From Acidobacteriota bacterium (lineage in GTDB: Bacteria > Acidobacteriota > Blastocatellia > UBA7656), in the NCBI GenBank assembly GCA_016201275.1, contig JACQDB010000063.1, positions 1 to 41,284 of the forward strand: a DNA stretch of 41,284 nucleotides, in the 5' to 3' direction. A program made the translations under genes and the position numbers. This document shows positions 10,898 to 30,740 of the stretch, in pieces (the first letter of the stretch is position 1; every line of letters begins with the position of its first letter). Below the pieces are notes generated by a model, which was given only the letters and a program-made list of their open reading frames with translations, was not told the origin of the DNA and did not search any database.

Positions 10898-11016
10898 TAG
10901 CGCTGTAGGAGCGACCTGTCTATAGATTATTGACTACGAGAATTTCTCTAGCTCCATAGGAGCGACTTGTCTGTAGATATTGACTACGAAATTTCTCTAG
11001 CGCCGTAGGAGCGACC
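10898..11016 (+). repeat. tandem repeat of about 50 bp, 2.4 units
   Basis: Units start at 10898, 10949 and 10998 with TAGCKCCRTAGGAGCGACYT-like sequence, followed by a TATTGACTACGA and AATTTCTC block in the first two. The third unit is cut short and continues as the left arm of the adjacent palindrome. Confidence 0.7.
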
Positions 11017-11057
11017 TCGGCTGGCGCAGCAATCAGGGGTCGCTCCTACGGCGCTAG
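10997..11057. repeat. 20-bp perfect palindrome ending in CTAG
   Basis: Arms CTAGCGCCGTAGGAGCGACC (10997-11016) and its exact complement (11038-11057) enclose 21 bases. The final CTAG is shared with the first CTAG of the next element, which suggests that the latter inserted there. Confidence 0.8.
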
Positions 11058-11182
11058 AGCGGTTTTGGTTTGAGATTACGGAAACCTCAAACCCGTTGAG
11101 CGGCGGTCGAAGACCTTCGCGCGGTCGAAGACTGCTGCTCAACGATAGGGTGTTCCGTACACACCTATGAAAACCGCTCTAG
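11054..11182 (+). mobile_element. CTAG element (MITE-like), copy A
   Basis: A non-coding element bounded by CTAGAGCGGTTTT and AAAACCGCTCTAG. Inside it carries TTTGAG...CTCAAA, two direct GGTCGAAGAC blocks and a GTTGAGC.../...GCTCAAC stem. It shares almost its whole sequence with copies at 19561-19687 and 29427-29554. The left CTAG is also the end of the preceding palindrome. No transposase lies inside, so movement would need one acting in trans. Confidence 0.8.
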
Positions 11183-11292: not shown

Positions 11293-11388
11293 TATAGCGG
11301 CTTGCAGAGGTGTGCGATGGGTTGAGAGGCGGTCTGTGACCGCCTCTCAACTAGGTGTTGTGGGTGTGGGCAAATGCCATTCGCTATA
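11293..11388. repeat. TATAGCG-family palindromic repeat, copy 1
   Basis: Ends are TATAGCG and CGCTATA; the centre is the hairpin TTGAGAGGCGGTC...GACCGCCTCTCAA, followed by a GGTGTTGT...GGGCAAAT block. Its right 42 bp overlap the 3' end of arsC and encode the last residues of that protein. Related copies are at 19423-19513 and 21662-21778. Confidence 0.75.
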
Positions 11389-19422: not shown

Positions 19423-19513
19423 GTTGAGAGGCGGTTTCCGACCGCCAGAATTTGCGGTTGGAGACCGCCTCTCAACCAGGTGTTGTAGCCGTAGGCAAAT
19501 AAAATTCGCTATA
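19423..19513. repeat. TATAGCG-family palindromic repeat, partial copy 2
   Basis: The hairpin GTTGAGAGGCGGT...ACCGCCTCTCAAC and the right end through CGCTATA are present; the left TATAGCG terminus is missing. A second ATCGCTATATATG follows, 14 bp on, as if the end were duplicated. Confidence 0.65.
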
Positions 19514-19560: not shown

Positions 19561-19687
19561 TAGAGCGGTTTGTGTTTGAGATTACGGAAACCTCAAACCC
19601 GTTGAGCGGCGGTCGAAGACCTTCGTGCGGTCGAAGACCACTGCTCAACGATAGCGCGTTCCATACACACCTATGCAAACCGCTCTA
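19561..19687 (+). mobile_element. CTAG element (MITE-like), copy B, at the pstS stop
   Basis: Ends TAGAGCGGTTTG and CAAACCGCTCTA are perfect inverted repeats. The interior matches copy A. The right-hand CTAG contains the TAG stop codon of pstS, so the element sits immediately behind the gene; the left CTAG has changed to TTAG. Confidence 0.8.
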
Positions 19688-21661: not shown

Positions 21662-21778
21662 TATAGCGGGTTGCAGAGGTGTGCGCTTGGTTGAGAGGCA
21701 GTCTCCGACCATCGCATGGCGGTCACAGACCGCCTCTCAATCAAGTGTTGTGGTCGTGGGCAAATGAACTTCGCTATA
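21662..21778. repeat. TATAGCG-family palindromic repeat, copy 3
   Basis: Complete ends TATAGCG and CGCTATA with the central TTGAGAGGC...GCCTCTCAA hairpin. It is about 20 bp longer in the middle than the copy at arsC, with an extra CCGACCATCGCATGGCGG segment. Confidence 0.75.
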
Positions 21779-29015: not shown

Positions 29016-29348
29016 AGTTGGCTCCAGCAACTCGCGTGCGAAATCGCGCAGGGATGTTTTTTGGTGTAAGCCACAGAGCTTGGCAACGGCTGCAAAATAT
29101 TGCAGCGTTAATTTGCGCCTGCTCAATATTTTTGTGGCTGTACGTGCAGGCTATCCGTAACAACCAGGGGCATATTTCGCAGCGATTATAAGTTGTATTG
29201 CTTGCACAGGCTAGACAAATTTCACGCGCCGTCAAAAAGTTTCTATAGTGTTTTCATCAGGCATTCAGTTTGGTTGAACTCCGCCACATTTGGTTATAAG
29301 CTTCGCGCCGCAGTTGATACCGTCATCAAAAGAGAACCCACTTCAATA

Positions 29349-29850
29349 AACTGGACACCAGTGTATGACCCATTCGGCGCGTGGTGGCTTTCGACCCTTG
29401 TCGCCTCTTTGCCCATACTGGTTTTGCTAGAGCAGTTTTTCTATGGGTGTACTGCCCCCCTATCGTTGAGCAGCGGTCTTCGACCGTGCGAAGGTCTTCG
29501 ACCGCCGCTCAACGGCTTTGAGGTTTCCGTAATCTCAAACACAAACCGCTCTAGGCTTGCTCGCCGTTGTGCAAATCAAACCGCATTGGGCGGCGATGTG
29601 CGGCGCGTTGACCGCTAGGGCTTGCGCCAGTTTCGTCTTTGGGATGCCGGTCGCGCTTTCCTCTATGAGCTTGCTGTACGGCGTGGCCTTCGGTTTGAAG
29701 ATCGTTTGGATAGTCGTCACCGCAGTCTTTCTCTACGACATATCGGTGCATACCGGGCAGTTTGAAATCCTGAAAGAATCGGTCGTTTCGATTACCGCTG
29801 ACCGCCGCTTGCAAGTCTTACAGGTCGCCTTCTGTTACAGCACTGGCTAA
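29349..29850 (+). pseudogene. broken L-lactate permease, N-terminal quarter
   Basis: Two pieces in different frames match the N-terminus of LctP-type permeases: WTPVYDPFGAWWLSTLVASL (from 29349) and, from 29551, LGLLAVV... through VFGMPVALSSMSLLYGVAFG and FEILKESVVSITADRRLQ. Between them lies a CTAG element (29427-29554); removing 124 bp rejoins the frames as ILVLLGLLAVV. The similarity stops near 29838 and a TAA follows, so about three quarters of the roughly 550-residue protein are missing. No start codon is evident. Confidence 0.85.
29427..29554 (-). mobile_element. CTAG element (MITE-like), copy C, inside lctP remnant
   Basis: Bounded by CTAG on both sides (29427-29430, 29551-29554), in inverse orientation to copies A and B. 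Terminal inverted repeat AGCRGTTT...AAACCGCT. It interrupts a reading frame, and excision of 124 bp, leaving one CTAG, restores it. This shows insertion with duplication of CTAG (or TA within it). Confidence 0.88.
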
Positions 29851-29942: not shown

Positions 29943-30731
29943 TCAATCAAGGTAGCGCGATTGCACGCGGTGCTGGCGTTCGATTTCTTCGAGGACGATT
30001 TCCGGCGGCAGTTGCAGATGGGTTAAGTTTAACTTGACGACGACCGCTTGGGCGATGCGCGCCGCCAGCATGGAGCGATTCGGCTCGTTGAGTTCATAAC
30101 GACGATTGAGAAAAGTTTCGACGGCCTGCAATTCGCGGTCGGAGAGCAAGCGCGTGTTGGCCTTGAAGGGCGCGGGCGCGGCGCGCTGAAGTTTTTTCGC
30201 TTCGCTTTCCGAAAGCCGTATGATGTCATCAAGCGAAGGCGCTTCCGCAGCGCGCTCTTTTACCACCACGGTTCCGGCAACCAGATCGCCTATGCGTTTC
30301 GAGCGCGGGCTGAAGATAATGGTCGTCACGCCTATGGCATAAGAAAACGGCGGCAAAATATCTATGATCCGAAGCAAGTTCCTGATAAAGGCTTCAAAGA
30401 AGCGAATCGGGCGTCCGTCTTCGCGCACGACGCGCAATTTCATGATGCGTTTGCCGGGCGTCTGGCCGCTCCAGAAAGTTTCAAACAAGACAAAGTAGCC
30501 CCAATAAATCGCAAACAGTATTAGCACCGCAAGCGCCGCTATCCAAGTATTGAAGGTCGCGCCAAAATGCCAATCCGCTATCAAGCCTAAACCCAAAAAC
30601 AAAACCACCACCAACAATGCCTGAATCAGATGGTCTATGGCCGCCGCCAGAAAGCGATTGCCGATGTTGGCGAGGATATAGTGCAACTCGACGCGCTCAG
30701 GTGTTTCAATTAATAGTTCGTCATCCAGCAT
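29943..30731 (-). CDS. RDD-family membrane protein
   Basis: A 262-residue protein with the RDD domain in the first ~165 residues: R and D in GNRFLAAAIDHLI, hydrophobic helices at about 27-50, 61-84 and 115-138, the motif SGQTPGKRIMKLRV and a later D in RIIDILP. RDD proteins are poorly defined; some are Na+(Li+)/H+ antiporters. The C-terminal ~95 residues are soluble and helical. It is the third gene after hfq and tmk. The ATG at 30731 is chosen over a TTG two codons upstream; its leader is the inverted heptamer repeat. Confidence 0.82.
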   Translation of the reverse strand: MLDDELLIETPERVELHYILANIGNRFLAAAIDHLIQALLVVVLFLGLGLIADWHFGATFNTWIAALAVLILFAIYWGYFVLFETFWSGQTPGKRIMKLRVVREDGRPIRFFEAFIRNLLRIIDILPPFSYAIGVTTIIFSPRSKRIGDLVAGTVVVKERAAEAPSLDDIIRLSESEAKKLQRAAPAPFKANTRLLSDRELQAVETFLNRRYELNEPNRSMLAARIAQAVVVKLNLTHLQLPPEIVLEEIERQHRVQSRYLD

Positions 30732-30740
30732 AATCAATCA

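Follow-up and report, generated by a model that had tools for sequence, protein, structure and literature searches.

The stretch of DNA analysed, referred to below as the window, is one whole contig (JACQDB010000063.1, 41,284 nucleotides) of the draft genome of an Acidobacteriota bacterium (GCA_016201275.1; 6.84 Mb in 162 contigs). Within it lies the remnant of a lactate-permease gene on the plus strand, made up of a 5' part (29346..29429, INWTPVYDP...PILVL, recognised from its frame and by alignment) and a 3' part (29554..29841, recognised through Pfam and by alignment), and followed on the minus strand by an RDD-family gene (29943-30737). The two parts are separated by an insert of 126 bp (29428-29553) with TA at either border, a C outside on the left and a G outside on the right, CTAG being read at both 29427-29430 and 29551-29554; the inserted DNA amounts to 124 bp when one TA is counted. 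With the insert present the 5' and 3' halves of the permease are in different frames, and fusing the flanks at a single TA yields one open permease frame, ...SLPILVLLGLLAVVQIKPHWAAM... (also given as ...PILVLLGLLAVV...). This fused reading is gap-free at the junction residue when compared with three permease sequences, two of them annotated permeases from plasmids of Azospirillum and the third an open stretch, carrying no annotation, from a Gemmatirosa plasmid; the alignment contains one single-residue gap, some 49 residues beyond the junction, and the top-ranked plasmid matches are 52.5% identical over all 121 residues. The 3' half matches the Pfam family Lactate_perm (PF02652) with an E value of 1e-22, and the permease is itself a remnant, its frame ending soon past the aligned residues and the Pfam match covering profile positions 17-111 of 522. 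An earlier sequence-only reading had proposed that a non-coding element interrupts the permease and that it moved as a unit. Both proposals stand: removal of the insert restores the single frame, and none of the three permease sequences has extra residues at the site.

The insert is one copy of a gene-less repeated element, termed here MITE family A (29428..29553 from TA to TA, plus strand, by sequence reading and copy comparison). Its target TA, placed by the rule drawn from 69 copies, is found on the left at 29428..29429 (outer base C at 29427) and on the right at 29552..29553 (outer base G at 29554). The ends of the family are bipartite, TAGAGCGGTTTT-N10-TACGGAA, with the same spacing left and right, and few parts of the consensus are as well conserved as the outer block of this inverted repeat. 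In the permease copy the left terminal inverted repeat (29428..29456, plus strand, located from the consensus) is partly decayed (TAGAGCAGTTTT, TACTGCC), and the right one (29525..29553, located by the end pattern) reads TAGAGCGGTTT-N11-TACGGAA on the minus strand. Between the ends lies a core of two inverted copies of GTTGAG-NN-GCGGTC-NNN-GACC, read in the sequence here as a first hairpin on the plus strand (29465..29486, GTTGAGCAGCGGTC-TTC-GACCG) and a second, inverted hairpin (29493..29513, GTTGAGCGGCGGTC-GAA-GACC on the minus strand). The core is called REP-like in that it works like a REP, though its tag, GTTGAG, is not one of the reported REP tags (GTAG, GTGG, CGTC). The earlier reading had missed this feature, i.e. 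that the middle of the insert is the REP-like doublet of a different mobile system.

Family A is abundant in this genome, well above anything that chance would give. With a 128-bp query, of whose 223 candidates 40 were scored, at least 40 copies were recovered, 89-100% identical to it; a two-ended pattern matched 70 times in the forward and 75 times in the reverse direction (0 and 0 for the reversed control), a right-end pattern gave 87 (control 0), and the bipartite end pattern, allowing at most one mismatch, gave 96 and 98 on the two strands (control 0); about 100 copies is a fair estimate. At 28 right-end places that were unpaired among the listed two-ended matches the sequence was in every case that of MITE A, in some shortened or lengthened, with L085 and L089 cut by a contig end and L077 and L090 one-ended. 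Three copies lie in the window: the permease copy and two recognised by copy comparison on the minus strand, both of 127 bp, at 11055..11181 (CTAG target) and 19561..19687 (TTAG target). The first of these adjoins tandem and inverted TAGCGCTGTAGGAGCGACC-type copies at 10898-11059, which perhaps represent another REP-like family.

For a closer comparison 71 elements were picked from the similarity and end-pattern matches, a sample biased to well-preserved copies; removal of two false picks (281 and 157 bp) left 69 copies, two of which are without the first T of the left TA. The consensus was drawn from 68 copies, one genuine copy (L100) also having been left out. Of the 69 copies, 54 measure 124-128 bp, five 108-110 bp (the length of a single-hairpin form), four 144-146 bp and two 181 bp, with single copies of 117, 119, 168 and 219 bp, so that most lengths step by about 18 bp with the number of hairpin units. 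Within the 124-128 bp class, 53 copies were compared; they depart from the consensus by 5.4% on average (range 0.8 to 10.2%), with one identical pair. The hairpin loop in the 69 cores is TTC 100 times, TGT 10 times, AGA nine times, TTT four times and TTG once, and the GGTC/GACC stem is kept. The two strands of the consensus fold at -64 and -73 kcal/mol. Selection on the stem at the RNA level found no support: among 44 pairs in 53 copies there were eight double-change cells, seven of which fall on a single pair, itself disrupted in 25 of the copies.

The sequence-only reading had suggested looking for the element in related genomes; in the searches of genomes of the class and a wider scan, family A was found in this one genome only, which was counted against the explanation preferred below. 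Viruses and plasmids yielded no match. An exact scan of all genomes, from which the record of this genome itself was possibly left out, returned a single match, in a Desulfovibrio MAG; no second end was found there, and the match was taken as chance rather than as a copy of family A.

The bases outside the 69 copies disclose a marked choice of target. CTAG is found at 32 copies, CTAA at 10, TTAG at nine, ATAG at seven, TTAA at six, CTAT at two, and TTAT, ATAT and ATAA at one each. YTAR therefore accounts for 57 of 69 copies (83%), as against 13.5% of the 1312 NTAN sites of the window, and CTAG for 46%, as against 2.7% of those same sites. The sequence-only reading would have been refuted had all other copies lacked CTAG at their borders, and this is not the case. 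The remark in the sequence-only reading that CTAG is scarce holds for the window, where it occurs 35 times and 159 would be expected from base composition. For 12 of 41 usable copies the empty site falls within a stop-free frame of at least 150 codons, compared with 70 of 80 control positions 700 bases away; family A insertions are thus mostly outside genes. IS630 reportedly prefers TA within CTAG, a preference attributed to Tenzen and Ohtsubo in 1991, and the CTAG preference seen here over tens of natural insertions repeats the rule known from IS630 work.

What is duplicated on insertion can be read from the same copies. TAG begins 66 of the 69 copies and CTA ends 68, irrespective of the outer bases; among the 37 copies whose outer bases are not C and G, the inner TAG and CTA are both intact in 35, which places the inner G and C within the element and leaves TA alone as the duplicated target. 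The earlier proposal of a duplicated "CTAG (or TA)" accordingly survives for TA and falls for CTAG, the outer C and G being preferred neighbours only, and a 4-bp CTAG duplication is ruled out by these 35 copies. These observations bear on the suggestion that the mobiliser was an IS5-type transposase producing a 4-bp YTAR or CTAG duplication, as in the 100-nt MITEPsy1, which is described as inserting at, and duplicating, CTAG or YTAA. The YTAR target of family A would fit such an enzyme, but the duplication of TA alone does not, the IS4/5-type transposase family PF13340 has no match in this genome, and the ends are those of IS630 elements of relatives, all of which makes an IS5-type mobiliser barely credible.

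The end pattern itself points to the IS630 family. TAGAGCGGTTTTN10TACGGAA, with at most one mismatch, is present in nine of 162 genomes of the class, this one included (reversed control 0 among the rows listed), and in two of them it bounds IS630-family elements, of 1014 bp (L107 in G068) and 1016 bp (L111 in G015), flanked by C-TA..TA-G and T-TA..TA-A. In each, an HTH part and a DDE part are encoded in separate frames with an overlap close to a run of A, and the offset of the frames is not the same in the two elements; the DDE frames score 124 and 114 bits on the IS630 transposase model NF033545 (cut-off 100) and also pass the Pfam DDE_3 cut-off. One end of L107 and one of L111 each share 26 of 30 positions with the left end of the MITE; against six IS ends the left end agrees at 22 to 26 and the right end at 18 to 23 of 30 positions. 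A search with the aligned pair of DDE frames found related transposases in 20 of the 162 genomes, and among 30 loci of that search paired ends were recognised in 14 distinct elements (one spurious pair and one duplicate left out), ten of them with TAGA(G/T)C ends and 13 with pyrimidine-TA..TA-purine flanks.

Gene-less elements with like ends and other insides are found in further genomes of the class. Four MITEs of 179-229 bp in one genome (L117, L118, L120 and L122 in G019) have the same end type and are palindromic around GGGACAGTACCGCGCGCGTGAGCAAGCGG; one of the four contains an inner duplication. A 100-bp MITE of the same end type in another (L109 in G089) has the core GTTTAGAGGCGGGC-ATA-GCCCGCCTCTAAAC, close in design to the family A hairpin.

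A full-length transposon with like ends, the existence of which the sequence-only reading had proposed to check, was thus found in two relatives and not in this genome. A partner transposase of the matching IS630 subgroup, which an IS630-type MITE usually but not necessarily has in its own genome, gave no match here at an E value of 1e-10, a point against the reading, although the draft is in 162 contigs and may lack a repeat. Such IS630 remnants as the genome does have are incomplete or frame-broken and belong to other subgroups (best E 0.009, 24% identity). The search by way of DDE_3, NF033545 and the relatives' DDE frames led only to such remnants or to nothing, and no inverted ends of the family A type were seen around the remnants (four loci, then five, were looked at). 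A longer element sought through TAGAGCGGTTTNNNV gave four matches as against five in the control: one 28-bp element, one enlarged MITE relative and two of no clear type. The 28-bp element (L060, G000:C46:102861) consists of two joined MITE A ends only, between C and A, and no core-less precursor of family A that would show how the hairpins entered was found. The view that the gene-less insert was moved by a protein encoded elsewhere nevertheless gains from the match of its ends to transposase-coding elements of relatives. Mobilisation in trans by an IS630 transposase would be the best reading, and one that is well supported by the anatomy of the element and by its relatives, the mechanism being taken from ISY100, whose transposase is described as sufficient on its own to excise and integrate the element in vitro. 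Given that the copies have diverged and that the partner transposase was not found, family A is probably inactive in this genome.

The core leads to a second mobile system. This genome has eight Y1-transposase matches, of which two share a frame. One open frame of 187 residues (L213:1198-1761) scores 104 bits on the model NF047646 REP_Tyr_transpos (cut-off 80), and the only solved structure found for it by sequence is the TnpA-REP structure 4er8 (E 0.00063). Around this RAYT gene, at distances of up to about 220 bases, the hairpin pattern is matched seven times without mismatch: five times beyond the 3' end of the gene and, in inverted orientation, twice ahead of its 5' end. The other Y1 matches in the genome have no hairpin-pattern match around them, one three-mismatch near match being common to L207 and L209.

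It might be asked, then, whether the element is simply a REPIN mobilised by the RAYT, with outer ends that merely resemble inverted repeats. The REP-like doublet at its core and the presence of an open RAYT gene of the matching kind are what such an element would be expected to show. Against this, the outer block of the inverted repeat is well conserved and almost all copies begin with TAG and end with CTA, the insertion in the permease is exact at these ends and accompanied by a TA duplication, and the ends match IS630 elements of relatives; this explanation is highly improbable.

The distribution of the hairpin bears on where it came from. The tag-and-palindrome pattern GTTGAGNNGCGGTCNNNGACCG, which counts a symmetrical hairpin twice, has 189 and 200 matches on the two strands of this genome (control 0). 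Among the matches listed, 24 were sorted into 19 places, after two automatic labels had been corrected by eye (the second match of one place labelled C, and one worn A copy labelled B): seven places are MITE A, four belong to a second MITE-like family, family B, six lie in a context of tandem-unit repeats and two are elsewhere, so that 11 of these 19 listed places are inside family A or B. At two loci of this genome (L182 and L196, in G000:C4 and C10) the hairpin belongs to units of about 64 bp repeated in tandem, where other palindromes also abound; one of these, GTGGCTTCACCAC, looks by eye like the inverted repeats around other Y1 genes (L204, L211).

Family B occupies 10 places in this genome and combines TATAGCGG ends with the core of family A, in one- and two-hairpin forms. 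Two copies were read in the window, both on the plus strand: one of 96 bp at 11293..11388, with TATAGCGGCTTGC ... ATTCGCTATA ends and the same REP-like core, and a two-hairpin form of 117 bp at 21662..21778. TA stands at both borders in nine of the 10 places, the outer bases being less regular than those of family A, and a possible kinship to IS630 is suggested by agreement of the ends with those of one TATAGC-ended IS630 relative (L143), at 16 of 24 positions for one end and 16 of 21 for the other. At about 19423-19476, near the MITE A copy at 19561, another GTTGAGAGGCGGT hairpin pair is perhaps a worn family B copy.

Outside this genome GTTGAGNNGCGGTCNNNGACCG is rare. It occurs six and two times on the two strands of one genome of the same family but another genus (G002), once per strand at a single place in G059 and once in G084, and it is absent from the other 158 of the 162 class genomes searched, five of these belonging to the same family; that the exact pattern is present in just one of the six other genomes of the family was counted against capture of the hairpins from the host. 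Neither the DNA of MITE A nor its end pattern has a match in G002. One of the eight matches in that genome (L175) lies in a 92-bp, TA-bounded element with TAGAGCCG ends, whose inverted pair agrees at 9 of 12 positions, and around the remaining seven no TA-bounded inverted pair does better than 5 to 8 of 12; by this thin margin the seven hairpins are taken as standing alone, outside MITEs. G002 also has a counterpart RAYT gene (L206), 74% identical to that of this genome over its full length of 187 amino acids and with, as judged from DNA, the same neighbours on both sides. It is preceded by one GTTGAG hairpin and followed by two inverted ones, and in each of these hairpins the spacer between tag and stem is three bases long, where that of the family A hairpin has two. 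The hairpins beside the G002 gene are therefore a variant of the family A hairpin, not identical to it, which again counts against capture. Since this counterpart locus is found in another genus that lacks a MITE match, the RAYT gene and its hairpins probably predate MITE A, and it is more likely that the MITE took the hairpins from the host than the reverse.

The opposite direction has to be weighed, namely that family A is an ordinary IS630-derived MITE within which the hairpin arose, and that the hairpins beside the RAYT gene and elsewhere are shed MITE fragments. MITEs usually fold into long hairpins, as the consensus does, the MITEs of other genomes with these ends carry unrelated palindromes, and the difference between the G002 hairpins and those of the MITE would be in keeping with such an origin. 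The carriage of other palindromes within the same ends was also held against capture, and a palindromic core may be a general habit of such MITEs and not a REP-specific event. Yet hairpins of like design flank the counterpart RAYT in a genus without a MITE match, seven of the eight exact G002 matches are without convincing inverted ends, and RAYT genes are, in published descriptions, expected to be flanked by their own REPs. An origin of the hairpin within the MITE is on this evidence unlikely.

The explanation preferred here, to which a probability of roughly 0.77 is assigned, is that an IS630-family MITE took up a REP doublet of the host, which became its core, and was then amplified. A minimal IS630-type element, or a deletion product, would have acquired the REP doublet between its ends; an IS630-family transposase would then have bound both blocks of each end, excised the element and joined it to TA, as ISY100 does in vitro. 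If such a transposase needs only the ends and a TA, the composite could multiply into mostly intergenic TA sites, with CTAG favoured, and the doublet would have spread without use of the RAYT. The number of hairpin units may subsequently have drifted in 18-bp steps, and the source of the transposase would later have been lost, or is missing from the draft.

Each component of this composite has known counterparts. The IS630/Tc1-mariner elements, as described for IS630 and ISY100, duplicate a TA target, with CTAG preferred by IS630, encode HTH and DDE domains and have terminal inverted repeats; family A differs in having no gene, and in the full-length elements of the relatives the transposase is spread across two frames that overlap, in contrast to ISY100, for which a single encoded protein is described. 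The IS630-derived MITEs RUP and Correia/NEMIS are, in their published accounts, likewise gene-less elements of about 100-200 bp with TA at both ends and a long hairpin, the ends of RUP are reported to resemble those of IS630-Spn1, and ERIC is by its described form a TA-ended relative of such MITEs. Family A is set apart from RUP and Correia by a core that is a tagged REP-like doublet, matches a RAYT in the genome and varies in the number of its 18-bp units. With REPs, REPINs and RAYTs, as these have been characterised, it shares a tagged palindrome with a short loop, an inverted doublet and a RAYT flanked by inverted copies, but the tag is GTTGAG and not GT(A/G)G, and many copies lie inside DDE-type ends and could therefore have spread without the RAYT.

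Two described MITEs come close in other respects. QMITE2 of Coxiella burnetii is reported to be a MITE containing a GTAG REP, although its duplications are of 7-11 nt, its REP is a landing site for IS1111, and the paper mentions neither IS630 nor RAYT. The BrickBuilt MITE of Porphyromonas gingivalis is described as having a tandem repeat within it, but of 23-nt units, which the abstract does not call REPs. Among the open-licence papers listed for REPs, REPINs, RAYTs, MITEs and IS630 and for RAYTs in Acidobacteria, no title or abstract opening described a MITE of the IS630 type with a local RAYT's REP inside it, and the one paper found to contain both REPIN and IS630 mentions them separately. 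A MITE containing a REP already has a precedent in QMITE2, and family A is consequently judged to extend a known kind of element.

Whether such capture has happened more than once is a broader question. The proposal that REP hairpins of the single-strand, HUH-based RAYT system have repeatedly been captured as cargo by IS630-type MITEs, which move by double-strand DDE chemistry, has about even odds; beyond family A it draws on family B, on the single 92-bp element of G002 (L175) and possibly on the 100-bp MITE of G089 (L109). If it is true, one mobile system would have become the vehicle of another and could raise the REP load of a genome many-fold, as the eight exact matches in G002 and the 389 in this genome would illustrate. 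The usual explanation of REP repeats is the action of their own RAYT, and here a good part of a REP-like population sits inside the ends of another transposase family, a warning that counts of REPs per genome can mislead. The relative that has the counterpart RAYT, few repeats and no MITE match would offer a natural comparison for deciding if the abundance of REPs is set by the RAYT or by a vehicle on which they hitch-hike.
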